Made by a program: the position numbers and the translations under genes
The notes under the pieces: model-generated
The model's input: the letters and a program-made list of their open reading frames with translations, nothing else
Database searches by the model: none
What the model was told of the DNA's origin: nothing
Shown here: positions 10,455 through 26,145 of the stretch, one piece after another
Layout of the letters: each line of letters opens with the position of its first letter
Position numbering within the stretch: the first letter of the stretch is position 1
NCBI GenBank assembly: GCA_003194525.1
Contig: NBIV01000685.1
Span: forward strand, 1-26,145
Length of the DNA: 26,145 nucleotides
Source of the DNA: Gracilariopsis chorda
Lineage: Eukaryota > Rhodophyta > Florideophyceae > Gracilariales > Gracilariaceae
Direction: 5' to 3'

Positions 10455-13400
10455 ATGCCTCCAACTCAGCCCAATGCTTCAGGCGATGCCACACGTGAGC
10501 AGAACCGTCAACGTACTGCTGCGAGACGTCGAGCAGAGTCCAGTGAGCAACAGGCAGAGAGGAGAAGTCATGATAGAGAGCGAACAGCCATACGGAGGGC
10601 AAATAAAACTGAGGAACAGCGTGAAGCACGAAGAGCAGCTGATAGGGAACGTGCGCGAAGAAGAAGGACTAGAGCTTCCGCCGCGCACACTTAGGAAGTT
10701 TGTGAGGCCGACCGTACAGCCACTGCTTCGGCACGAGCTTCAGAGACGCCGGATAATCGCGCCAATCGTCAGGCAAACGATCGTGACGCCCCTAGTGCTG
10801 CAAGGCAACAGGATGAGCCCACTGCTGAACATTCTCGCTCTCACTCTGAAAGAACATCTAGACAGGCATCGCGAGAGCTCGAGAGCGCAGCTCAGAGGCA
10901 ACAGCGTCTTGAATCTCAGCGCGAGAGCCAAAATGTGGCCCGCCGATTGTTTGACTCGGATGATGTCGACGAGAGAGGCTACATGGACCTCGGTGCCATG
11001 AATGTAGAGCGCCGCTTTTGCAAGGTACTGCATCTCAAAGAGGAAAGGGTTATGAGCAGCTCCCGCTCGCAACCTTTTGAAGCTGAGCGCGAGAGCCGAA
11101 ATTTCACCCGTTGATTGTTTGAATCGGATAATGTCGATGAGAGTGGCTACATAGACCTTGGTCTTATGAATGCCGAGTGCCGCTTCTGCAAGGCACTGCA
11201 CTTCAGAGAGGAGAGAGTGGTGAAAAGCTCTCGCCGGAACCCGCTTTTCTCGCAGTGCTCCGCAAAAGGGCAGCTCAGCTTCCCTGCGCTTCTGCAGCCT
11301 CCACCTCTTCTTCGTCAACTGTTGACTGGGACGGAACCCCGAGAGAACCACTTTCGTGCTGAGAGCCGTGCCTACAACACAGTTATGTCTATGGCTTTCG
11401 TCAAGGCAAACTGGATGAGCCTTGGTTCAGGAGACTCTACCTTCAATCCTACGATCACCATGCAGGGACAGATCTATCACTACATGGGTCCGGTCATTCC
11501 TGCTCAGGGTGTCCAGCCCGCATTTCTGTCTGTTTACTTCCATGAAACCGACTATGACGCGCAGTATGCGAGGCGAGCGGGGTTGCTGCCCCGCCTCCAA
11601 CCGGAACTGCTGTCTCAGTTGGATGCCATGCTGCACACGGGGAATCCATACGTGCAGACATTCGACAGCCTGTGCGAGTGGGCTATCACCGATACGCCAG
11701 CAATTACGTATCAGATGGTGATTTATGCTGATAGACGGCCCCATGGCGAGCATGTTCGTCGCTACAATGGGCCCGAGGCGTCGCAAGTAGCCGCCATCAT
11801 TCCAGGGAATGAGGACGGCGAGATTGGGACGCGCGATATTGTTGTGCGTAGGCGTGGAGAGCTGACTGTAAATGGTGATGAGTTGCTGGACACTATCCCC
11901 GTCAGTTACAGATCTTACGGTCCCTTGAGCTACGTTCTTTTGTTCCCATGTGGCCAGGACAGATGGCACCCTGAGATGAGGTATTGCCCACCAAATGCCT
12001 CGCGAGAGAAGAAGGTGACTCCGCTGATGTAATATTCGTGGCAGCTTTTTCAGAGACCGACCGAGTTCAGTACAATTCTACGTGGCAAACGGCTCTTCCA
12101 GCAGTACATGGTTGACCAGTTCTGCAAGGTGGAGTCGGAGCGCTTGTCTTACTTACGACACAACCAGGACAGACTTCGAGCTGCGGACTATACATCCCTG
12201 CGGGAGAGCCTGGGTGACTATCTGCTGGGCGTGGATGAGGCCGATGCTGTTTGCGCTGGACGACTGTTCGTATTGCCCTCCACATTTGTAGGAGGTGACC
12301 GATACATGAGACAGCAAATGCATGAAATCATCGCCATATCCAAAACTATTGGGCACCCCGATATCTTTCTCACGATGACGTGCAATCCGAACTGGCCTGA
12401 AATTACCAGGGCGCTGTTCGATGGTCAGCGCACTCCCGATCGACCCAATCTTTGTGTTCGAGTGTTTCGTCTCAAGATGAAAGCCTTGATGTCGTTTGTC
12501 ATTGATGAACAGTTCTTTGGAGCCGTTCTTGCTCACGTGCGGGTAATCGAGTTCCAAAAGCGAGGCCTACCGCACGTGCACATTATCTTCTTCCTCAACG
12601 AAGATGCAAAGCAGCAGCCCCGAGACCCTGCTCACATTGACGACCTCATCTCAGCTGAGATTCCTCTTTCCTCCGACGCCACCTTACAAGAGTTGGTGCT
12701 CAAGCACATGAGTCACACTCCGTGCGGTGCACGCAACCGGTCAGCGCTGTGCATGCGTGAGCTGACCTGCTTGAAGCACTTTCCGAAGCTGTTTCGCTCC
12801 GAAACTGCACGGCTTGAGAATGACTACTACGTGAGCTACCGACGACGCACTCCGTCAGAGAGCGGGGTGTCTGTGGAACGAAGCTGCAGGGTTGGCCGTC
12901 GACAGCGCGTAGTGACATTGGACAATTCGTGGGTTGGGCCACATTACCTAGAGCTTCTCCGCTGGTTTGCATGCTACATCAACGTTGAGCTATGCGTATC
13001 GCGACTTGGCGGTATCAAGTACCTTTTCAAGTATGTGTGCAAGGGTTCCGACAGAGTCACAATGGAGATTGTAGATAAGAACGGACGCCATGAACAGATC
13101 CAGAAATTCCAGGACGCACGGTATGTGTCAGCCTCCGAAGCAGTGTGGCGTATACTTGCTTTCGACATTTTCGATCGCAATCCACCCGTCGTGCGGCTTG
13201 AAGTACACTTGGAAGATCACCATACGGTGTTATTCCAGGAAGGCGACGAGCACTCTGCTGCTAACAGAGAGCGGGCAGGAACCAAGCTGACTGAGTGGTT
13301 TGTGGCCAACCAAAAGTACCCCACTGCACAGCATATCCCTTGTGCCCAGTTCCCGAGGTACTTCACTTGGAACAAATGAAACAAATGCTGGAAGCCGCGT

Positions 13401-14914: not shown

Positions 14915-17188
14915 ATGGACCCCTCCGAACCCCCAATGGAAACCCCCTCACAGGACCCTCAAGCAACCGACTCCGTCGGTGGGCGCAGCACGCGCAGCGC
15001 TCCGCAGGAGATGGCCGCCAAACTGGAGGATCCTGAAAGTCTCCTTAGGAATCCCGGCTCCTCTGTGGAGCGTTTCAGGAATCGCCTTAGGAGAGTGCAC
15101 GATCGGAAGCAAGCAGAATCCCCCGCGACACCTTTGTAGACCGCCGACGTGGAGGTTGAAGAACCGCACACGGCATCGCAGCTGCCGCCTCAGGAGCTGC
15201 AGAGACGGGAAGACCCGAAGGCTAACTCCCTCCTGGCGTCCCTGGTCCCGCGCCTTACGGATTGGCTCTCACAGGAGCTGGTCGAAAGAATTCCTGGAGG
15301 TGTCGAGGCGCATTTCGGAGCGCGCCGCCACGCCCTTGTGGAAAAAATCGCACCGGAGAGTGCTCACCGTGCTGTGGATGCCTTGCTGGATTCGGACCCC
15401 TTCCTAGAGGTGATCTCAGATGTGATCCGTGCGGAGGTTCGTTCCCAAACCGCGCAGCTGCTCCCCGCAGCGGCGTTTCAAAGTCATTCTTCCGTACAGG
15501 AGAGGTTCCCTCTATCAACACCTAAGGTGACACCGGGCAAAAAAGGACAGGATACTGCCGCCCCCTACGCCAGGGGAGGAAAGGATACTGCCGTAGGGAA
15601 ACGGGAACACCTCAGGAATATTGCCATGCACCGTCTGGACCTGTCGCCCCACGGAGGAGGACAAGACACCGGTCGCGAAGTATTTCACCCAGGGAGAGAA
15701 GGAAAGGATACTCCCCGGGTGAATCTCGATAGCGGGGGTATCAGCAGGCACCCAGACAACCTAAAGGCAGGACGCCGAAAGAAACGGAGGGAAAAAAGCA
15801 GAAAGCGAGACACCGATTCGGAGAGAAGCTCAGAATCTGAATCCGTAAACAGCTCCAGCTCGGAGGACAGTATACCTCCCAAGGAGAAAAGCAGAAGGTT
15901 CAGGAAGGTCGTCCCGTCTAACGACCTCTTCGCCAAAGTGGTGGATTATGACACCTACAGGTTGAATGATCGCTCCACTCTTTACGACGCGTCGGTCGCT
16001 AAACGACTCACGAAGATCCAGCGCCGCATGGATATTCAAATGAAGAAGCACTCCTTCTCAGGTGAAGACCCCATCTCGGTGTTGAATTTTCTTACACGCT
16101 TCCGTTCAGCGTGTAATACCAATGGTGTCCATGAAGGTGCCGCCGTATGGTGCTTTCAGTTCTACCTCACAGGTAAAGCGCACTCGCTGGTGCAGCCGCG
16201 CCTCACGGGGGAGAGCACCATTGTGGATGATCCTGGAACGGAGATCTTGAAGACGTACTCGGAGGTGGTGAATTTCCTCCTCAAAAGGTACGCAACGGAC
16301 GAGGTGATAGCCGATGCTGACGCAGAACTCACCTCCTATAGGCAAAATACGGGAATGACCGAAACGGAGTTCTCGCAGAAGCTGTGGACGAAGGCCTTAC
16401 GGTGTTGGAACGTGTACTCCGAACGTCGGTTGAAGTCGTTGTTTGTCGAGGGACTCCTTCCCTTGATCCGCGCCAGGGTGCGTAATCACTTGACAACGCA
16501 CCCAAAGACCACCTATACGGAGCTAGCACGTTTCGCGGAATCATATGGGGATACCCACCGTGCCACTCGCCACAGCTACGCTCCACTTTCGGACAAACCG
16601 ACGGCCTTAAGGAACCGTCGGCCATCCGCCCTGACGTTGGACTCCAGCAGCTCAGGGGAGGTCGACGAGCTCGCGCTCGAGGGAGAGCAAGAGGCCCTTG
16701 CTCTTACATACGCCTCATCTCAGGGAGCACCGTCTAAAATGAAGACACCCTCGTCTCCTACTTCGTACGCATCGGCAGGATCCTACAGTAGTGTCCGATT
16801 CGCGAAACCTCGAGGCTACCCACCGCCTTGCAGGATTTGCTTGTCTCGAGAGCCAGTACACTGTAATAATCTCACTCCGGCAATGAGGGCCACCATCCTG
16901 CAGGAACGGGAGAAGAAATTCCAGGACCTGAAGGACACACCAACGGAGAGCGGAAGTTATCGAACCGCGGATCACGATATCCGCTCCCCTCAAGGAAACT
17001 ACGGTTACCGCACTCCAGTTGGAGTGCAGCCTGTTCCACTGGCCCTTGCACCGACAGCGCAATGGCCGGCACCCAAACCGCCTGCACCTCAGAGGAACAC
17101 GTCGCATCCCAATGCGCAACCGCAGCAGCCGTCCCCCACTGGAACTCTGATCCTCTCCAACCAGGAAAACCCTCAGGGTCACGCGTAG
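14915..17188 (+). pseudogene. gag: retrotransposon Gag polyprotein with one in-frame amber codon
   Basis: ATG 14915 opens a frame that runs to TAG 17186-17188, interrupted only by TAG at 15137-15139. The downstream segment alone has no ATG before about 15626, so the two parts belong together (758 codons). Counting from 15149: residues 1-115 helical; 120-190 Gly-rich with four G(Q/K)DT repeats; 207-220 a basic cluster resembling a nuclear localisation signal; 220-250 Ser/Glu-rich; 300-470 the retrotransposon capsid-like domain (DPISVLNFLTRFRSACNTNG, SEVVNFLLKRYATDE). A knuckle-like CRICLSREPVHC sits at 561-572, then a Pro/Gln tail. Gag forms the particle that packages element RNA in the cytoplasm. 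The amber is probably a loss-of-function mutation; the context (TAG ACC) does not match known readthrough signals. The knuckle is atypical, lacking a clean CX2CX4HX4C. Confidence 0.75.
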
Positions 17189-17249: not shown

Positions 17250-18073
17250 GGGAGAAGCCGTCTGCACGGTCTGTGGTGCAATGCCCCAAAGGGGAAAAAC
17301 ACCGAAAGACGTCCGGGATCTTCCTCTCACGAGGTGAACCCAGTTGGGTAGAGCCCTCCCAGAGGTGTCACGGCGAAGCCGGTTTGTAAGACCAGGGACA
17401 CCTGTCGCGACTCGCGCAGGGAGGTGAAGGCGAAGAATCGGTATCCGCGTGAGCGGGGTGTGATCCTCAGTAGAGGTATGTTTCCACGTAAGTGGGGGTG
17501 TGTGAGCGGATGCGCACACGAGGGCCGCGGATAGCGGGAGGTGCTACCCTAAAAAGGGGAAAGAGGAAGGACGAGTGGGTCGCGAGAGCGACGAGTAGAT
17601 ACGGCAATGCCGGTGGACAGGACTCCCTATACAGGGCGAAACACCAATATGATTGGAACAATTAGTACTCCCAATGATGGGTCTCCTTTAGATGTGCAAG
17701 GGGGGTGAACTTCCGTACACTACGGTGCTTCCCTCCAAGGAGGAGTTGAGAACACGCGGAGGCGGTAAAGCTCAGAGCCAATTCCCCAGGTTGGGGTCCC
17801 TTGTTGGGGAAGGTTTACTGGTGCGATGGCAGTGCGCCGTCGCACTAAGTACTAGCTTCCCAGAAATGGGTGTGAAAATAATAAATAAAATTAACTAAAA
17901 TACTCCACATTCCGTGGCAACATCCACTACTGTGGCCAACCGCCAATTGACCCAAAACCGTGTCCCACGTGTCCATACCCACCATTGTGGGGCGTAGTTC
18001 ATATACACACTACACAACCGATAATATCGGGAAAGCGTTCAAGTACCCAGAATCCCTCCCTGAGGGCGTTGCA
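17250..18073 (-). repeat. probable 3' LTR of minus-strand Ty3-like element
   Basis: In minus orientation it shares, in the same order, the blocks found in the plus element's LTR (TATTTTAGTTAATT at 17902-17889, then GTACTTA, AGTAAACC, GGTGTTT). It is preceded in minus orientation by a purine run (18090-18081), as a 3' LTR should be. If it begins TGCAACGCC the upper edge is 18073; TGTATATGAAC at 18007 is an alternative. The lower edge is uncertain, near the gag stop of the plus element. The segment is densely packed with small hairpins and has no supported gene. Confidence 0.45.
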
Positions 18074-18080
18074 CTTCATA

Positions 18081-18090
18081 TCCCCCCCCT
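18081..18090 (-). promoter_or_regulatory. putative polypurine tract
   Basis: On the minus strand this reads A, eight G, A, followed by TATGAAG and then a TG that could open the LTR. Polypurine tracts prime plus-strand DNA synthesis in LTR elements. It also lies about 50 bp upstream of the divergent plus-strand ORF. Confidence 0.4.
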
Positions 18091-18135
18091 TAAGACGGGA
18101 AAACGACCGCGGGCGCGGAGGATTCCCAGACGAAA

Positions 18136-19977
18136 ATGGGTGATAAAAGCGCGTGCTTTGTCTCCGGTTCTCCGGTAAATCCCTCTGCACCAGAGTCATC
18201 AAGCACACAAACGACAACAACAGCCACCCTCCAAAAGGGACAAATGAACGACGACAACCATATCAACAGCCACAGCCAACCGCCGAGACTTCTCGGGCGG
18301 TACACCACCGGTTTCCGGTCAGTTCCCCTGCCTCAGGGCGATCGAAATCCGGTACAACCGGGGAATATGGCTGCTGCAGCCGACCATCCCTTCGCACTAC
18401 CACCTTCGGTGGTGTCCTCCGGAACCACTCCGGTGTCCAACTGGCCAACCTACAACACCCTGGTGGGGCTCAACCCGATGAATCGGAATCACGCGTCGCG
18501 CCTGCGCCTTGCCCCGTGGTTTCACCCGGTCGCTGTCCTCAATGAGGGGTTGGTCACCGCTTATGCGGATGGTTCAGACACCCTTCCGGGGGATCTGCCC
18601 AGAGCAGTCACCACATCGTGGGATTGGCGGCACCGGATTGCGATTCCGCGTCACCACCTCCGAAGAAACTCGGGCGAGACCGTCGCTGCGGCGCAGACCG
18701 CGTTGACGCGGATGGCGTACCAACGGCAGAGCCGGGCTCCATTCGATGTACCGGTCCCACCGGAGTTTGGCTTCGACGTTAGCTACTTCCGCACTCGCGG
18801 GGAGATTGGGTACGGCGAGAACCTGTTCCGCCTCGAGACCCTCGCTTGGAGGAATTTCCCCGCAGCGCGGCAAGAGGCCCTTTGCTGGGAGCGACCGATT
18901 ATTCGGGCGGAGTTCAGGTACCTTCCCCGGCAATACCGGTCCAACTTTCTCCAAAACTTCATCCGCTACGAGCGGCGTTGGCGATCCCGATTCGGGTACT
19001 TTATCCCGTATCAGAACGTGGAGATAGAGCGGATTGCGCCGCCTCACCGACTAGGTCGGTATGTAGCACTCCCCGAGTGGTGGCGCTTCCATGAAGCCTG
19101 CCGGGGGTGCTACATAGAACTCCCGCCGGTACTTACGTACCTCGGTTCGCTGCTCATGCAGGATCCCCGGTCGGGGTTGTGGTCCGTAGTGGTTACGGAG
19201 TGGGCGGCCCGCAGTGCGGCTTATATCCTCAACGAGGCGTACGACCAGTATCGTCTCTGGTTCCTTCAACCGCGTGTGCGGGCAGCGATCCGAAACCTGG
19301 ATCTTCGCATCCCCCTTGGGGGCCAGGCCAACAATGAAGAGGTCCTCCAATTACTTGGGTACATCGACAGCGTTAGCTGGAGTGAGGTCCCGCTGGAGCA
19401 AAGCGGTCGTCTGGATGGCGGCAGCGGTAACACCGGTGGTCCGGGACTCGGTAGAAACACCGCCCTTGCGGGGGATTTTATCTACTTCGACCCCTGGGAG
19501 TTCCGGGAAATTTCCTCCGAGGAGGCGCGAGAGCTTCGCGATACGCCCCGGCATGTGCCGGAAGACCACCCGGTGGGGTACGTCGATTCTGACGACTACT
19601 ACCGCGCATACGGCGGGGATGACCCAATGGTCGATAACGAACCGGAAGAACCCGGGGAGATGGACGTAGAGGAAACCGGCGCTAGCGCGGAAGCTTTCCC
19701 AGAGGGGGTATCTCCGGCCGAGCCGGCTGCTGACCCTTCAACGGCAACTGCCGGACCTTCTATCCCCAGCGGGGTGACGGCGAATGAAAACGAAATCATC
19801 GCACGTTTCCTCCGGGGTGCCGGTCTTAGCGCTGCCGAGGTATCGGGGGATGTCACCACCATGGCGGACGCGTTGGCCTACCGCCTTGCTGGGGTTACGC
19901 CCCGGACGATGGGGGTGAGTGAAACCTCTAGTCCAGTTTCCTGGTTCTTCTTTCCCTGGCTATGCCAGTTAGTGTAG
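18136..19977 (+). CDS. 613-aa ORF of unknown function, antisense to the retroelement
   Basis: It is intact from ATG 18136 to TAG. It converges on pol, whose chromodomain frame ends 137 bp away, and starts beside the putative polypurine tract. Residues 1-100 are Ser/Thr/Asn/Gln-rich and probably disordered. Residues about 100-430 look globular and are rich in Arg, Trp, Tyr and Phe (ETLAWRNFPAARQEALCWER, RYERRWRSRFGYFIPYQN, LPEWWRFHEACRGCYIELP). Residues 430-560 are acidic with Gly and Pro. A small helical module (ENEIIARFLRGAGLSAAEV) is followed by a hydrophobic end (VSWFFFPWLCQLV). There is no signal peptide, zinc finger or polymerase motif, and I recognise no family. Known precedent: Ogre/Retand-type plant elements carry antisense ORFs between pol and the 3' LTR. 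The aromatic/Arg-rich core could bind nucleic acid, which is only a guess. The same mini-hairpins run through it. Confidence 0.8.
   Translation: MGDKSACFVSGSPVNPSAPESSSTQTTTTATLQKGQMNDDNHINSHSQPPRLLGRYTTGFRSVPLPQGDRNPVQPGNMAAAADHPFALPPSVVSSGTTPVSNWPTYNTLVGLNPMNRNHASRLRLAPWFHPVAVLNEGLVTAYADGSDTLPGDLPRAVTTSWDWRHRIAIPRHHLRRNSGETVAAAQTALTRMAYQRQSRAPFDVPVPPEFGFDVSYFRTRGEIGYGENLFRLETLAWRNFPAARQEALCWERPIIRAEFRYLPRQYRSNFLQNFIRYERRWRSRFGYFIPYQNVEIERIAPPHRLGRYVALPEWWRFHEACRGCYIELPPVLTYLGSLLMQDPRSGLWSVVVTEWAARSAAYILNEAYDQYRLWFLQPRVRAAIRNLDLRIPLGGQANNEEVLQLLGYIDSVSWSEVPLEQSGRLDGGSGNTGGPGLGRNTALAGDFIYFDPWEFREISSEEARELRDTPRHVPEDHPVGYVDSDDYYRAYGGDDPMVDNEPEEPGEMDVEETGASAEAFPEGVSPAEPAADPSTATAGPSIPSGVTANENEIIARFLRGAGLSAAEVSGDVTTMADALAYRLAGVTPRTMGVSETSSPVSWFFFPWLCQLV
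19915..19968 (+). other. possible 54-nt in-frame intron at the 3' end of the antisense ORF
   Basis: GTGAGT at 19915-19920, a pyrimidine-rich run (GGTTCTTCTTTCCCTGG) and TGCCAG ending at 19968 look like a small intron. Its length is a multiple of three and it starts on a codon boundary. Removal would delete the hydrophobic tail and leave Leu-Val-stop. It could instead be plain coding sequence. Confidence 0.25.
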
Positions 19978-19989
19978 TGTAGTATTGTG

Positions 19990-20015
19990 GGGAGCTAGCT
20001 GCTCCCTTGAATAAA
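19990..20015 (+). terminator. stem-loop and AATAAA after the antisense ORF
   Basis: GGGAGC (19990-19995) and GCTCCC (20001-20006) form a perfect stem with a 5-nt loop, followed at once by AATAAA (20010-20015), 33 bp after the ORF stop. This is a plausible polyadenylation region for a plus-strand transcript. Confidence 0.45.
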
Positions 20016-20113
20016 CTTTCCCGTTTAGAACGGTGCTTCTCGGTTGAGTTCCCCGTCTTCGACGGACCTGGTCTTGTTATCCTTTCCTTTCGCTCTCCGC
20101 TCGCGCGGCAACG

Positions 20114-21397
20114 TTACCCAACTTGGGCATTTACCAGCGTGGCTGGAGCTGCAGTTCCCGTTTGACGGTGGTATCGCACGACCTGCGACCGTGGGAGGTG
20201 TTCCATTGGCTCCCACGTATCCCCACTGGGGTCGTACCCGTACCAGCGGACGCGGTATTGTAGAATACCATCCTGGTCCCAGGTGTGTCCGACAAGTCGG
20301 TCTACTACGAACTCTCGTTCGTAGACCTGCCGGCCGTGCCGGGTGGTGGTTGTAATCCCTGGCGAGGGTTGCCCGCGGTGCGGTATAATGTCCCTTAGCA
20401 GGGTGTTCGGCGATAACTCCGACGTTGCCGTGCGCTGTCCTAGTGGCCGCTGCTCATGCAGGAAAATATCTCTCAAGAGGGTGTGTGGTGCCACGGTTTT
20501 CACCGGCAAGTCGTTCCCCAGAGGGGTGTCGTTGTTTCCGTCTTCACGGTAGGCCGGGCGAACCGCCAGTCGGCGGGGGACTTGGGTTCCGCCTTCGCGG
20601 TTGAGCGCACGAACCGCGAGTTTGCGGGAAGATGACCGCTCCTGCGGGATCGGCATTTCCACAATCCCCTGGGGGGTCCCGTGCGACACGGTGATTGGGT
20701 GGCAAACCGCCTCCCTGCCAGGCGCACGAGCGCTCTGCACCATACGTTCCGGCGATGCCGTGGTGTCCCCGGCTACTGACGGGTTGCCTGGGGCTAACTC
20801 CGGTACACCGGTATTTTGGTCAAAATTCCCCTCTGGGGGGTTCCGGGCAGGTGCCGATGACACCCTTTTCAGGGGAATTGCCGCTGAGCGCAGTGCACCA
20901 TCTCCGTGAGGAGGAGCAGCGTCCGGTACGACCGGTTTCGAGCGTGCGATGGCGCGCGTTATTCCCGAGTTCCTCGGTTCTTCGCCGCAGCGATGCGGGG
21001 GTTGGCGCAAATTATTCCCCGTAGCGGGGGCTTTGATTCCGTCAACGACGGGAGGCGTTTCCGGTGCTTGCGAGCCAGGGCTTAAAGCTTCGACTGCAGC
21101 TTGGCCGCCTTTTTCCCCAAGAGGGGTGTGGGTATTCCCCTGTGAGGCCGGCGTATCTGGGCGCCCCTTCTCCGCAGGGCGCGGGTCTGATCGACCTGAT
21201 TGAACCGCTTCCGCGGGGACTTCCGCCAACGGCGGCTTCGAGGCATCGGGCGATTGCCTTTCCGCTGCTGCGGTATTGGAGTGAGGCTTCTCGTTTTCCC
21301 GGGACAAACGGTGTATTTGCCGCTTTTGCAGGGCCTGTGCGTCTGGTTCCTGTTGCACAGCACTGCCCGGGAACGGGGGATTAGTGTCGCGTGACAT
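20114..21397 (-). CDS. pol C-terminal extension with chromodomain
   Basis: This frame overlaps the end of the RT/integrase ORF by 316 nt and lies -1 relative to it. Residues 1-350 are Pro/Ala/Arg-rich linker with short internal duplications (LLRDIFLHEQ and LLRDIIPHRG; LAVRALNREGG and LAVRPAYREDG). Residues about 360-410 (20320-20168) are a chromodomain: EREFVVDRLVGH, YRVRWYGYDPSGDTWEPMEHL. The aromatic positions expected to bind methyl-lysine are present (Phe in EFVV, Trp and Tyr in RWYGY). In chromoviruses this module follows integrase and steers integration towards marked chromatin. In an intact element it should be fused to integrase, so either a frameshift mutation or a -1 shift within 21397-21082 separates them. 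The ATG at 21397 could be fortuitous. Confidence 0.75.
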   Translation of the reverse strand: MSRDTNPPFPGSAVQQEPDAQALQKRQIHRLSRENEKPHSNTAAAERQSPDASKPPLAEVPAEAVQSGRSDPRPAEKGRPDTPASQGNTHTPLGEKGGQAAVEALSPGSQAPETPPVVDGIKAPATGNNLRQPPHRCGEEPRNSGITRAIARSKPVVPDAAPPHGDGALRSAAIPLKRVSSAPARNPPEGNFDQNTGVPELAPGNPSVAGDTTASPERMVQSARAPGREAVCHPITVSHGTPQGIVEMPIPQERSSSRKLAVRALNREGGTQVPRRLAVRPAYREDGNNDTPLGNDLPVKTVAPHTLLRDIFLHEQRPLGQRTATSELSPNTLLRDIIPHRGQPSPGITTTTRHGRQVYEREFVVDRLVGHTWDQDGILQYRVRWYGYDPSGDTWEPMEHLPRSQVVRYHRQTGTAAPATLVNAQVG

Positions 21398-24300
21398 ACT
21401 CCGTGCTCCACGGTCAGTGTTCCGTATGTTACGGTGTGTTTCCCGTTGCGACGGTGATATCGTTCCTCGAAAACGAGTGTTCTCCTCCCCTCCTTAGACG
21501 GAGCGGCGGGATAAGGGATAACATTCCCCGCCTGGCGGGTATAGATGCGCGCCAGTGGGGCAGACGTGGTAGGGGCGGGCGCTGAGGGGCCCGAATTACC
21601 CGGCTGAGCCGGTGAGTCCGACAGAGTCGGTAGGTCTGAGAGTCCCCGGCTGGGGTGTGGTAGTACCGTAGGTCTAGTACTCCCGGATTGTTCCGGTGTA
21701 GCGGAGTCCGTAGAAACGGGGTTGCCTGGATCCAGGACTACCTCTGACGAGGGAGGAGCGGCAAGGACAACACGATCACGGGAAATCCGTTCGTGCGTGT
21801 CCCCCATCTCTACCACGACAGTGTCGGTGTTAACAGAGATCACCTTGAAGGGTCCATCCGCCACAGGCGAGAGTTTGTGACGCTTCTCCCGTTCCGGGTT
21901 GTAGTATTCCTTCCTGATGAAGACGTAGTTATTTGCCCGAATCGGGGATGGTTTTCCTCGCACGCGAGCGTCAAAATCCCGCTTGTAAGCGGCTTGGGCC
22001 CGTGCCATAGACTTCCGCGCAGCGGGGACCAGCTTGGAAAGCCATCGCTTCCATTGCTGCCGGTAGATACCCACAGATGGGAAATTGTCCAAGGTAGCTT
22101 GGGGTTCCAGCGCCACAGGCGGGGGTGTTCTAGATAGAACTAACTCGAATGGCGAAACTCCGGTAGTCCGGTGTACCTGTGTATTGTACGCGTAGGTTAC
22201 CGCATCAGCGTAGAGATCCCAATTTGTTGGGTGGTCAGCGACGTAGGAACGTAACGCCGCGAGTAACGTCCGGTTAAACCGTTCAACTTGCCCATTACAC
22301 TGGGGGTGGTAGGTAGTCGTGAACAAGTTCTTGACATCCAGGATGCGACAAACATCCTGGAAGAACTTGCTCACGAACTGCTTCCCGTTGTCAGAGAGCA
22401 CCTCTACAGGGGGACCGTAGACAAAAATCCAGTGCGTCACCAGAGCCTGGGCCACCGTGAGAGCGGTTATCCTCCGAAGAGGGACAGTCCGTACCAGCTT
22501 AGAAAAGCGGTCGGTAATGACAAGTAGAAACTTGTTTCCACGTTTCGTGGTGAGTAATGGTCCGAGAATATCGATCGCGATAAACTCGAGCGGCGCCCTT
22601 GCGGGGAATAGTTTCATCTTCTTCGCATTTTTGCGGAGTTTGACGCGATTCTTCGCGCATTCGCTACAAAACCGCACAGTTGCGTAGCAATCCACCGCCA
22701 TTGCGGGCCAATAGAAATCCCTTCGCAGAGTTAGGTAGAGTTTCCTCCCACCTGGGTGACCTCCAATGGGGGCGTAGTGTGATAGATGTAACACCCGCGA
22801 TTGCAGGGAATGTGGTACCACAATCTGTGGGCGGGCTTCGACCTTTCTTACGAGGTAGCCTTTGTCGTTTACCCCGAAAGGGAGATCTTCACCACCGTTG
22901 ATACGGGCACGAATTCTCGTACAGAATGGGTCGCCGAATTGTTCTCGGATCATTTCTTCCGGTGATACCGGTACAAAGTTTCCCGGTAACGGGTTCTCAG
23001 ATTTATCTCGCGATGCGAGTAGTTCGTCAAAATCAGCATCCTCGTCCCAGGTTTCTGGCCTAGCCTCGACGGCATGTTCCGGATCATCCGGGTCTATAGC
23101 CATGAAGCATGGGACTTCATCATCCTCCGTTGGGAGTGCTTCCCCACTTGTGGGTAACCGCGATAAAGCGTCGGCCTGGGTGTTCTGCGCACCCTTTTTA
23201 TAAATGACTTGAAAGTCATATTCCGCGAGGCGGAGTCTCCAGCGCATGAGGCGTCCCGACGGGTCGGAGATATTCATCAACCACCTCAATGAGGAATGAT
23301 CCGTGTACACGGTGAAGTGAATTCCCATAAGGTAGGGGCGCAGAGTGGTCATCGCCCATACGACGGCGAGGCACTCTTTCTCCGATACGGAGTAGTTCCG
23401 CTCATGAACATTGAGCGATCGCGACCAATAACCAATTGGATGTCGTTCCCCCTCGGGGGTGGTTTGAAAAAGAGCACACCCGACTTGGTAGTCGCTCGAG
23501 TCCGTATCTACGGAGTATGGCAACCCAAGTTTTGGGAGATGTACGATTGGTGCTGATGTGACAGCCTCCTTTAAGGAGTTAAAAGCTTCCGATTGCTCGG
23601 GCGTAAATGTTCCCAGTTGTGGGGGGTTCCCCTTTCGCAACAACGCGTTCAGGGGCGCTGCAGTATCCGAAAAGTTCGGGATAAACCGTCGATAGACGTT
23701 GACCAGCCCCAGAAAGGAGCGCAGTTCCGTTTGAGTACGGGGTTCTTTCGCCTCAACGAGGGATTTGACTCGAGCTTTCTCGATCGCTAACCGTCCAGGA
23801 CGGATAATGTGACCCAGATACTTCACAGTATCTGTGAAAAACTCGCATTTCCTCAACTTGAGGGTAATTCCCGCATCGCGGAGTACGGTCAGCACGTCTC
23901 GGACGTGAGTGAGATGGTCGTCCAACGAGTTGGAGAAGATGATAATATCATCAAGGTAGACCAGACAACTCCGCCACTTAAAGCGGTTGAGTAGAATATC
24001 TACTGCACGCTGAAAGGTGGCGGGGGCGTTGGTTAACCCAAATGGCATCCGCTTGAAGCGGTACGTTCCTGCATGGCAGGTGAATGCGGTTTTGTCGCGA
24101 TCCTCCTGTCTGACAGGTACTTGCCAATATCCCCAATTGGCATCAAGGGCCGTGAACACGGTGGCGTCTCCAAGGGAGTCAATGCACTCGTCCATACGAG
24201 GGATGGGGTACGTGTCCCTAACAGTCACGGCATTGAGCCGGCGGTAGTCGACACAGAACCTCCAGGTTCCGTCAGCCTTTAAAGCCAGTACAACTGGGGA

Positions 24301-24747
24301 TGCCCAGGGCGACTGAGCGGGCTCAATCACACCTGCGCGGAGCATCTTGTCCACCTGGGACTGCTCCTCTTCCCGAGCTTTCGGACCTGCCCTGTAAGGG
24401 GGTTGTGCAACCGGTCGCGCACCGGGGATTAAATCGATCCGGTGTTCCGTTGCATCAATCTCGCCAAGCGAGCCATCCCACGTTGTGGTGAATTCCCGTA
24501 ACATAGTACGGAGTTTGTCGCGGTGCGACTCTGGCACGTGGCTGAAGTCCAGCGCTTCAAGTGCTTTTTTCCGGATCAATCCGGTCATTGCTCGATGGAG
24601 CATTGTCCTGTGGAACAGGTGTGGTTCGCAATTCTGAGTTACTCGGTATGTTCGACGCTGAAGTAGCGGTTTCCTCCCCCTCCTTAGACTTGACGTCTTC
24701 GGACGGCGGGGTGAACTCCTCAGAAGAGGTGGTAACTCCGAGTACAT
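21082..24747 (-). CDS. pol: Pol: reverse transcriptase, RNase H and integrase
   Basis: A 1221-codon open frame; the ATG at 24747 is internal to the real polyprotein. RT: motif A LDANWGYWQ with Asp202, FGLTNAPATFQ, and active site YLDD at 264-267. RNase H: Asp416 (DTDSS), Glu458 (SEKE), Asp483 (YTDH), Asp526 (ADALSR). Integrase: zinc site His657/His664 and Cys694/Cys697, then the catalytic triad Asp726, Asp786 and Glu822 (35 residues between the last two), and a GPY/F-like module (ADGPFKV, 963-969). After about 1000 it is Pro/Ser-rich linker. All catalytic residues are present, so this part looks functional. The protein copies element RNA into DNA and inserts it. It continues from the protease region in another frame and is followed by the chromodomain frame. 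The last ~105 codons, where the chromodomain frame overlaps, are probably read out of frame. Confidence 0.95.
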   Translation of the reverse strand: MYSELPPLLRSSPRRPKTSSLRRGRKPLLQRRTYRVTQNCEPHLFHRTMLHRAMTGLIRKKALEALDFSHVPESHRDKLRTMLREFTTTWDGSLGEIDATEHRIDLIPGARPVAQPPYRAGPKAREEEQSQVDKMLRAGVIEPAQSPWASPVVLALKADGTWRFCVDYRRLNAVTVRDTYPIPRMDECIDSLGDATVFTALDANWGYWQVPVRQEDRDKTAFTCHAGTYRFKRMPFGLTNAPATFQRAVDILLNRFKWRSCLVYLDDIIIFSNSLDDHLTHVRDVLTVLRDAGITLKLRKCEFFTDTVKYLGHIIRPGRLAIEKARVKSLVEAKEPRTQTELRSFLGLVNVYRRFIPNFSDTAAPLNALLRKGNPPQLGTFTPEQSEAFNSLKEAVTSAPIVHLPKLGLPYSVDTDSSDYQVGCALFQTTPEGERHPIGYWSRSLNVHERNYSVSEKECLAVVWAMTTLRPYLMGIHFTVYTDHSSLRWLMNISDPSGRLMRWRLRLAEYDFQVIYKKGAQNTQADALSRLPTSGEALPTEDDEVPCFMAIDPDDPEHAVEARPETWDEDADFDELLASRDKSENPLPGNFVPVSPEEMIREQFGDPFCTRIRARINGGEDLPFGVNDKGYLVRKVEARPQIVVPHSLQSRVLHLSHYAPIGGHPGGRKLYLTLRRDFYWPAMAVDCYATVRFCSECAKNRVKLRKNAKKMKLFPARAPLEFIAIDILGPLLTTKRGNKFLLVITDRFSKLVRTVPLRRITALTVAQALVTHWIFVYGPPVEVLSDNGKQFVSKFFQDVCRILDVKNLFTTTYHPQCNGQVERFNRTLLAALRSYVADHPTNWDLYADAVTYAYNTQVHRTTGVSPFELVLSRTPPPVALEPQATLDNFPSVGIYRQQWKRWLSKLVPAARKSMARAQAAYKRDFDARVRGKPSPIRANNYVFIRKEYYNPEREKRHKLSPVADGPFKVISVNTDTVVVEMGDTHERISRDRVVLAAPPSSEVVLDPGNPVSTDSATPEQSGSTRPTVLPHPSRGLSDLPTLSDSPAQPGNSGPSAPAPTTSAPLARIYTRQAGNVIPYPAAPSKEGRRTLVFEERYHRRNGKHTVTYGTLTVEHGVCHATLIPRSRAVLCNRNQTHRPCKSGKYTVCPGKTRSLTPIPQQRKGNRPMPRSRRWRKSPRKRFNQVDQTRALRRRGAQIRRPHRGIPTPLLGKKAAKLQSKL

Positions 24748-25648
24748 CGGCGGCTGTCATCTTCGTTGGCAGCATTCCCATAGGATGGGGGGTTACACTC
24801 CCAATTACTTGGTGTTTGACCAGATACTGGGGGTGTTTGCCAAGGTTGGCAACCAATATCCGGAAAGGAACATCCGGGGAAATGGAGACAATTCCATTAG
24901 CCAGCGCCAGCTGGGATTTCTCGTACAACGAGGCGAGGGGTTGTATAACCCGAAGACCGTGTTGACGGGAATTTACCTGTACCCAGACTTGGGACTCAGC
25001 CGGTATAGAAACCGAGGCAGCGACGCGGAGCTTGGTGGACTCGCGGGACGCGGGCGGTGGTTCCTGCGCAGCAGGGAGCGGAACTTGTTTCCGAGAGGAC
25101 CGCTTTAGCGGGCGGCGAAACAATCGGAACCGACGATCCGTCGTCAAGTTCTACACGCCTGAGGCGGGGCCTGATTGCGTCGACAAATCTGTCGCAGTAA
25201 TCACATCCCAGTATGACTGGTGCTGCCAGTGAACGGCAAACGATGAAGTCCAACTTCACCACAGATGTACCAAGTCTCACGACGAGGTCCACTGTGCCCA
25301 CCGTTTGTAACGGATTGTTGTTCGCATCCGAAAATGTCGGGGACCGCGTCAGAGCGGATACGCGACCGCACAAGCGGGGGTAACAATGATTCCACGACAA
25401 AGTTGGGGCCTGCAACCTGTATCCAGGACGGTGAGAAACCTCACCATAAACTGGGGGTCAAGGCCAAGGTCGGCATAGACCTTATAATTGCGCTTGGCCA
25501 AGACCAAGACTCTACCGGGAATCCGGGGATTTTTACTCCATATCCACGGGCGACGCAACACACCGAGGTGCGCAGAGTCCGCGTCAGCGGTGTCTTTCCT
25601 CGAGAGGACTTTCACCGGGGAGCGAGGCGAGGACGCCTCGGGCGCCAA
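24557..25648 (-). pseudogene. aspartic protease and protease-RT linker, split over four frames
   Basis: The order of recognisable pieces is clear although the frame changes. FLTVLDTGCRP is the protease active site (Asp-Thr-Gly, about 25420). NFVVESLLPPLVRSRIRSD follows at 25401-25345. Then FSDANNNPLQTVGTVDLVV and SLAAPVILGCDYCDRFVD are the flap and ILGxD region, then RRPLKRSS. The linker QVNSRQHGLRVIQPLASLYE and VPFRILVANLGKHPQYL, typical of Ty3/Gypsy elements, runs to a stop at 24557. RT follows in yet another frame. The changes fall near 25408 (CCCC), 25345 (CCCCG), 25119 (TTT) and within 24747-24560. Each needs one base to be skipped. The protease would cleave Gag-Pol; as read it is broken. 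Confidence 0.75.
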
Positions 25649-25766
25649 CAGCCTCAGTTTTTGAGGACGCCTCTCCCAAAGGGGAGACTCCCTCAGTTAG
25701 TTTTCCGCCTTCGGCGGTGGGTTGGTTTCCTCGACAACGAGTGCTTCATCCGTTGACGGGGGTTTC

Positions 25767-26145
25767 TATCCGCATAAGCGGTGGTTGCAACGGATGGTTG
25801 GCGTGATCTCCGAATCGGGGTGTATGAAGCTTGCCGCGCACGCGGGGGTCTGTGGTAGGGCGTGAGAAAAGTCCGTTTTTAGCACGGAGGTAGGAAGCCG
25901 TCGGGACGGAACGTTCTCCTCTGGAGTGAGGGCCTCATAATTTGCCACCACCTTGGCCATATCCTTCAGTGAACAAATACACTGAGGAGAGGTATGGCCA
26001 TGGGCATAGCACAGGTGGCAAATGAGAGCCAGCACCGCGACACGCGGGATTAATTATTCCGAGTATCGGAGAAGCGAAACCGCAGGGCGGGTGTCAGTCC
26101 ATCCAGGCCGTTGATAACGGGATTGACCGTTTGAAAACGGGAGTC
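25767..26145 (-). pseudogene. gag: Gag C-terminal part with CCHC zinc knuckle, partial
   Basis: CHLCYAHGHTSPQC (26020-25979) is a perfect CX2CX4HX4C nucleocapsid knuckle, the RNA-binding end of Gag. It is followed by an Ala/Glu/Pro-rich tail and TAG at 25766-25768. The same frame continues through a further TAA to the protease start. Upstream, the frame from the window edge (FQTVNPVINGLDGLTPALRF) ends at a TAA about 25 codons before the knuckle, and the knuckle frame has its own TAA at about 26055, so a frame change lies near 26055. The region just after the knuckle (SLKDMAKVVANYEALTPEEN) resembles the post-knuckle region of the plus element's Gag, supporting kinship. The N-terminal part is outside the window. 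Confidence 0.7.

Follow-up and report, generated by a model that had tools for sequence, protein, structure and literature searches.

Why would a retrotransposon be filled from one end to the other with small, perfect hairpins? The question is raised by a stretch of 26,145 nucleotides (nt) from the red alga Gracilariopsis chorda (GenBank assembly GCA_003194525.1, contig NBIV01000685.1, positions 1 to 26,145), which was analysed whole and is called the window here. Its positions 17272-26145 hold, on the minus strand, the 3' three-quarters of a Ty3/gypsy chromovirus, a long terminal repeat (LTR) retrotransposon. An earlier note on this DNA had described the hairpins and proposed several causes for them; we confirm the observation, and the interpretation is supported in part. 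Perfect stems of 4 base pairs (bp) with loops of 3-5 nt number 406 in the 8.9-kb element, as against about 114 in dinucleotide shuffles. The whole element appears to be written in a repeated structural motif that varies from family to family, is visible from sequence and, in one family, is under measurable selection.

The excess is found at each loop length. Between 17258 and 26140, 4-bp stems with loops of 3, 4 and 5 nt occur 141, 150 and 115 times (about 38, 39 and 37 in shuffles), and 5-bp stems with a 3-nt loop occur 69 times (10.7 in shuffles); three other parts of the window give counts near those of their own shuffles. In bins of 500 nt the excess is continuous from 17.0 kb to the contig end and stops at the edge of the element. 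As had been claimed, the hairpins run through coding, linker and LTR DNA, and the excess is present in coding, antisense-coding and LTR sequence alike. Against shuffles in which amino acids, codon set and dinucleotides are preserved, the pol frame has 163 hairpins (52.3 ± 7.3 expected, z 15.2), an antisense open reading frame (ORF) has 81 (35.4 expected) and the chromodomain ORF has 59 (21.8 expected). Two control ORFs in the window, one gag-like and belonging to another element, the other from a Helitron, show no excess under codon-preserving shuffles (z -0.2 and 1.1). An 813-bp LTR stretch (17272-18084) carries 37 hairpins (9.5 ± 3.3 expected), and the 870 bp just outside it carry 13 (11.1 ± 3.5). 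Greedy tiling places 279 non-overlapping hairpins in 8874 nt, a density of 31 per kb that covers 40% of the sequence; the background is 11 per kb in one shuffle and 10.5 per kb in the remainder of the window. An artefact of composition or codon use is ruled out by the dinucleotide and codon-preserving shuffles and by the controls. The earlier note had named such shuffles, together with host genes, as the comparison that could refute the claim, and the excess survives it.

Three short intervals had been singled out as especially dense. All six 5-bp stems reported for 18307-18433 lie where they were placed, the loop being 5 nt at 18419 and 3 nt in the other five; with one hairpin counted in two registers the interval has 7 five-bp stems, and the maximum among 2000 dinucleotide shuffles is 6. 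The five 5-bp stems reported for 24049-24269 are likewise all present (maximum 4 in as many shuffles). Chance estimates of 0.12 per loop length for the former interval and 0.4 for the latter are about right, the shuffle means being 0.46 (loops of 3-5 nt) and 0.44 (loops of 3-4 nt). In 21366-21752, where about 15 stems of at least 4 bp had been counted, the number of four-bp stems with loops of 3-5 nt is 19, where 5.8 are expected.

The identity of the element follows from its domains. Pfam matches give the order reverse transcriptase (RT), RNase H, integrase in a single ORF (PF00078, PF17917/17919, PF17921, PF00665), and a chromodomain is located after the integrase (PF00385, E 2.6e-10). The features are these:

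17272-26145, minus strand: hairpin-studded chromovirus, truncated by the contig end before its 5' LTR.
17272-18078, minus strand: 3' LTR of 807 bp with TG...CA ends, its edge taken from LTR matches covering positions 7-813.
18136-19977, plus strand: antisense ORF of 613 amino acids (aa), hairpin-rich, with relatives in Gracilariopsis chorda and Gracilaria domingensis.
20186-20311, minus strand: chromodomain (Pfam PF00385), computed from residues 363-404, within the ORF 20114-21397.
21082-24747, minus strand: pol ORF, with Pfam domains.
About 23803-24279, minus strand, in the pol ORF: RT, computed from the Pfam residue range.
About 23218-23607, minus strand, in the pol ORF: RNase H, computed likewise.
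About 22645-22818, minus strand, in the pol ORF: H2C2 domain, computed likewise.
About 22303-22596, minus strand, in the pol ORF: integrase core, computed likewise.
25979-26020, minus strand: CCHC zinc knuckle CX2CX4HX4C in the C-terminal part of Gag.
18307-18433: dense hairpin cluster in antisense-ORF DNA.
21366-21752: dense hairpin cluster with 19 four-bp stems, loops of 3-5 nt.
24049-24269: hairpin cluster within the RT core.

The earlier note had correctly recognized a retrotransposon but had placed it at 17258..26140; the exact edge is 17272, the end of the 3' LTR, and the other side is the contig end at 26145, inside the Gag region, with the 5' LTR beyond the contig. A complete copy lies on another contig of the same genome, C50, where matches span 216859-228372, or about 11.5 kb. 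Its two LTRs are 99.5% identical (813-bp match), and those of a copy on contig C41 are 97.7% identical. The C50 copy has TG..CA ends and a 5-bp target duplication, GGAAT, read by eye; at the C41 copy, the other of the two looked at, none was seen by eye. Gag has a basic stretch in addition to the knuckle. In the window copy the frames are broken (20114-25700, minus strand) around the protease-pol junction and again towards the pol end, places at which many other copies continue in frame; copies with longer open frames exist. Scans of viral contigs gave no relatives. A protein match named Agarophyton chilense (Gracilariaceae), together with the relatives of the antisense protein, is in keeping with a gracilarioid red alga as the source.

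The hairpins follow a common design. The commonest maximal stems are those of 4 bp closing a 4-nt loop and of 5 bp closing a 3-nt loop; few exceed 5 bp, and a typical hairpin has a stem of 4-5 bp, a loop of 3-4 nt and a footprint of 12-13 nt. In the window family the outer pairs CC..GG are formed by 160 stems against 9.9 expected (16-fold), whereas the opposite orientation GG..CC, which has equal stacking energy, is not enriched (13 against 10.2); CT (21 against 3.2) and CG (27 against 10.3) are raised too. The earlier statement that nearly all stems close with CC/GG was too strong: the figure is 180 of the 339 maximal stems with a footprint of 11-14 nt. Among sites of footprint 12 with CC..GG, Watson-Crick pairing is found at pair 3 in 63% and at pair 4 in 59% (expected 29% and 28%), while pair 5 shows the chance level; sites of footprint 13 have raised pairing at pairs 3 to 5 but not at pair 6. 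The inner bases are thus free to vary so long as they pair, and the loop stays open. When pair types were counted with the other inner pairs formed, in the window element together with 1.8 kb from the 5' part of the C50 copy, Watson-Crick pairs numbered 463 against 145 expected, and mismatches other than G.U and C.A 57 against 285.

Spacing is constrained only over short distances: linkers of less than 5 nt are rare and those of 5-12 nt are favoured. A long-range lattice of 20.2 nt was rejected, its spectral peak being of marginal strength (equalled in a fraction 0.007, 0.023 and 0.053 of gap shuffles where it is present) and absent from the 3' half and the other families tested. In L073, a same-genome relative, hairpin centres with outer CC, CT, TC or CG peak at 10.75 nt (gap-shuffle fraction 0.010; one of 12 rows tested).

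In the window family, variants shared between copies reveal that stems, not loops, are under purifying selection. We compared 20 copies of about 6 kb each at sites that were at least 70% filled and at which the reference copy had the commonest base. Singletons are spread evenly over stems, loops and linkers (214, 88 and 402, or 117, 119 and 114 per 1000 sites); judging from how far the LTRs of the C50 copy have diverged, they are probably mostly changes made after insertion. Variants common to at least two copies number 21, 33 and 133 (11.5, 44.8 and 37.6 per 1000; Fisher p 2.5e-8), which makes them three- to four-fold rarer in stems. Against a null built on one real copy, in which base change and coding class were matched, the 187 shared variants destroy 20 hairpins where 51.8 ± 5.9 are expected (z -5.4), and the count is low for synonymous (z -3.0), non-synonymous (-2.5) and non-coding variants (-3.7). 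The 704 singletons destroy 198 against 214.7 ± 11.8 (z -1.4), those in non-coding DNA alone being somewhat low (50 against 67.1, z -2.5). With the two most diverged copies removed, shared variants destroy 13 hairpins against 31.2 ± 4.7, the synonymous ones alone just 7 against 11.1.

The earlier note had also suggested a search for covarying stem changes in other copies, and a few compensated pairs do exist. Shared variants at partner positions form 4 pairs against 0.12 expected, three of which lie in overlapping copies and restore pairing, the other falling in different copies; singletons form 19 such pairs against 11.4, four of them in one copy and two restoring pairing. Protection of stems was replicated in a subfamily, L074 (C363:44800-49800), after 457 of 4954 aligned columns had been dropped as poorly aligned. 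Changed sites there are 72 of 1388 in stems (0.052), 68 of 551 in loops (0.123) and 258 of 2558 elsewhere (0.101), a stem rate about half that of linkers, and 174 of 209 hairpins are intact where 43% are expected to be. The LTR of this subfamily (C363:42122-42934) is listed at 100% identity and its interior at 88%, perhaps reflecting subfamily recombination or LTR exchange.

How widely is the design shared? Families were compared by the longest open frame of each locus against codon- and dinucleotide-preserving shuffles. Four loci of the same genome, L025, L030, L072 and L073, the last two being near-copies of one family, have 64-71% nucleotide identity to the window family, and a foreign relative, L064, on a contig in a bacterial metagenome-assembled genome (MAG), has 68% identity over 167 residues. 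All five members of this clade have a 2.0-2.5-fold hairpin excess. None of eight other gypsy loci does: the ratios are 0.71 and 1.13 for distant ones in the same genome (L069 and L071) and 0.93-1.09 for six foreign ones (L059-L063 and L067). Four host kinase loci, among 132 matches listed, are also without excess (0.73-1.34), which together with L069 and L071 rules out a host-wide mutational habit. Plain dinucleotide shuffles of whole loci agree for L064 (132 against 51.9, z 9.6) and give values near 1 for L066 and L068, which with L065 stood outside the codon-level test. Loci L059-L068 are gypsy-like retrotransposon contigs binned into bacterial or archaeal MAGs, with eukaryotic contamination probable. 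In an RT tree a modestly supported branch (84/73) separates the hairpin rows from the others.

Within the clade the outer pairs differ. L025 uses CC (41 against 2.0 expected), L030 uses TC (19 against 2.2) as well as CC (16 against 2.4), L072 uses CC, CG, CT and TC, and L064 has no dominant pair. Hairpin positions in common with the window family amount to 7-9 of 72 in L025 and L030 and 18-22 of 72 in L072/L073, where shifted chance gives 0.6-0.8. Hairpin density is thus kept while positions largely turn over between families.

These properties bear directly on the cause. With copying errors and generic folding set aside, recognition is what is left: some reader would respond to the outer pairs and require a Watson-Crick stem of set size. 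A reader that varies among sister families sharing a nucleus would most simply be encoded by the element. Of the causes listed in the earlier note, a hairpin-reading protein is the best fit to the oriented CC..GG pairs, the variable but strictly Watson-Crick inner pairs, the set size, the variation of outer pairs among families and the selection on stems in the window family. In our judgement the chances are about even that the hairpins are dispersed binding sites on genomic RNA for an element-encoded protein, most likely Gag. Each hairpin would be a weak, degenerate putative binding site on the genomic RNA of the element. The reader would be an element-encoded nucleic-acid-binding protein, for which Gag is the likeliest candidate given its basic stretch and CCHC knuckle. 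Hundreds of sites in series might then discriminate the element's own RNA from that of the host or of sister families and condense it into a particle. With recognition spread over many sites, no single one would matter, and positions could drift while density was kept. More tentatively, and with the balance somewhat against it, families in one nucleus might carry a diffuse ‘hairpin identity code’ in which the outer pairs serve as a family password for each family's Gag or cDNA-handling protein; sister families would then not be cross-packaged, and density, not position, would be inherited.

That RNA is the molecule read is suggested by the flanks. On the sense strand, A follows the closing GG (where the next base is not G) in 85 of 140 cases, compared with 87 of 210 at non-stem GG (61% against 41%, p 5e-4), and for T ahead of the opening CC the count is at background level (27/109 against 68/263). 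Much of the raw flank signal proved to be background once that control was applied. The remainder recurs in subfamily L074 (55/78 against 55/109) and in the 3' part with its oppositely directed ORF (28/47 against 28/74). The A flanks weaken the case for a strand-blind DNA motif and modestly favour genomic RNA as the molecule read, although they would be equally readable on minus-strand complementary DNA (cDNA).

Several results weigh against binding of Gag to the RNA. We infer both Gag as the reader and the strand that it reads, and L059, a relative without codon-level excess, has a CCHC knuckle too. The flank signal is modest, and it is absent from the 5' part of the C50 copy (16/33 against 22/42, or 48% against 52%). 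G.U on the sense strand (20 against 64 expected) is as disfavoured as C.A (29 against 75), an unusual pattern for an RNA helix except where the reader requires Watson-Crick geometry. Folding in 120-nt windows is more stable for the antisense strand (z -1.53) than for the sense strand (-0.86). GG..CC is raised in L030 (7 against 2.1) and L064 (11 against 3.2), and the CC..GG orientation rule is therefore not general. Compensatory changes are sparse, at 3 co-inherited pairs across 20 copies, and comparison with L074 yields 7 and 2 compensated pairs in its two directions, not significantly above control. Covariation between families, at 64-71% identity, is weak: double changes preserve pairing more often than in the control with p 0.016 and 0.08 in two of five comparisons, and p is 0.2-1 in the others. 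The L030 family shows no stem protection among its 30 shared variants, and L025 has four shared variants only. Finally, plain shuffles find a weak excess in L059 (136 against 108.6, z 2.5; z 3.6 for 5-bp stems), L062 (170 against 135.7, z 2.3; 5-bp z 3.1), L065 (71 against 55.5) and L071 (51 against 38.1; z 2.2 for each of these two).

The rival explanation that survives best, although we regard it as unlikely, is that the active form of the hairpins is single-stranded DNA, in the first or second strand of the cDNA as reverse transcription proceeds, with nucleocapsid, RT or integrase as the reader. In its favour, pairing is strictly Watson-Crick and G.U is used on neither strand. Folding parameters point the same way: with DNA parameters the element is better separated from a control stretch (z -1.01/-1.00 against -0.02) than it is with RNA parameters in 60-nt windows (sense -0.66, antisense -0.50, control -0.32). 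The A-rich flanks of the sense strand look RNA-like and speak against this idea, though they are T-rich flanks on minus-strand cDNA. If the reader were indeed a DNA-stage protein, an unrecognized use of hairpins in reverse transcription would be revealed.

Distinctly improbable, in our view, is a reader other than Gag, either a host factor for RNA export, stability or translation or the 613-aa protein encoded in antisense between the chromodomain and the 3' LTR. This protein has relatives in Gracilariaceae, five proteins in all, with 51% identity over 95% to Gracilariopsis chorda BWQ96_03215 and 48% over 71% to Gracilaria domingensis FGB62_50g12, and 45 of the 72 scored matches to its ORF in the genome (at least 94% identity) have no internal stop. 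It matches no Pfam family above the cut-off, and its structure model is unusable (mean predicted local distance difference test score of 38). The loci of the L025, L030, L072/L073 and L064 families do not span the site of the antisense gene. A host reader should impose one code on all families, but families that share a nucleus have different outer pairs.

We give slightly less credence still to a mutational process without selection, in which the RT of the element folds back or switches template in each cycle and so makes near-palindromes perfect. Such a process would explain why the excess is limited to a clade, extends over all classes of DNA and involves perfect pairing, and two double changes do occur together in the same copies. 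However, the CC..GG orientation of the window family and the variation of outer pairs among families are hard to obtain from copying errors, and one compensated pair has copies with the first change alone. Single-copy mutations lend template switching no support either, since singletons create hairpins at the chance rate (50 against 49.3 ± 6.8), a count with low power for errors of the RT phase, to which such a process could be confined.

Generic selection for RNA structure, as genome-scale ordered structure or shielding from small RNAs or nucleases, is the least probable cause, and the earlier note's ‘selection for RNA folding’ fares poorly with it, because it ignores orientation and tolerates G.U, whereas GG..CC is not enriched in the window family, G.U is not used, few stems exceed 5 bp, and the folding-energy z, which does lie below that of the control stretch, does so by a small amount. 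In 120-nt windows the sense mean is -0.86 and the control -0.23. Strongly raised folding stability of the genomic RNA was not found, the sense-strand z being slightly below control; this small shift and the more stable antisense strand make global folding of the sense RNA an unlikely target.

The choice of its own RNA by a retroelement, and the separation of sister families in one nucleus, are usually explained by a local packaging signal. Here a second layer of information lies over protein-coding sequence at very high density. With chromoviruses the element shares the order of RT, RNase H, H2C2, integrase core and chromodomain, the TG..CA LTRs, a Gag with a CCHC knuckle and, in one of the two copies looked at, the 5-bp target duplication. 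It differs from them in its mini-hairpins, whose outer pairs vary among families, and in the antisense gene between chromodomain and 3' LTR. Searches of an open-licence library of papers found no prior description of a hairpin-studded element.

The closest known principle is that of the multiple dispersed packaging signals of RNA viruses, in which many degenerate stem-loops across a coding genome have a common recognition motif (PMC6281560). Many stem-loops and a common motif, here the CC..GG outer pairs, are features of both, as is maintenance of the motif by selection, which is seen in the window family and not among the 30 shared variants of L030. The element differs in having about 30 putative sites per kb, a motif in the outer stem pairs instead of the loop, exclusion of G.U, inclusion of the LTRs and differences between sister families. 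Genome-scale ordered RNA structure is spread over the whole genome with raised global folding (PMC7642675, PMC3950689); structure across the whole genome is common to both, whereas in the element folding energy is slightly lowered and size and outer pairs are set. Retand elements of plants, a non-chromovirus lineage, have antisense ORFs between pol and the 3' LTR, mostly with a TRP28 domain (PMC11963269); the antisense protein of the hairpin element has no TRP28 match, and the word ‘hairpin’ is absent from the main text of that paper.

Two neighbours in the window deserve mention. A gag-like ORF of another LTR element (15149-17188, plus strand) adjoins the hairpin element and, being without hairpin excess, is a natural negative control; it has 30% identity to the Gag of the hairpin family and a match to PF03732 below the cut-off. 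Further from the element, 12108-13379 on the plus strand encodes a Helitron Rep domain (Helitron_like_N, E 2.9e-47), which places a rolling-circle transposon near the LTR element.

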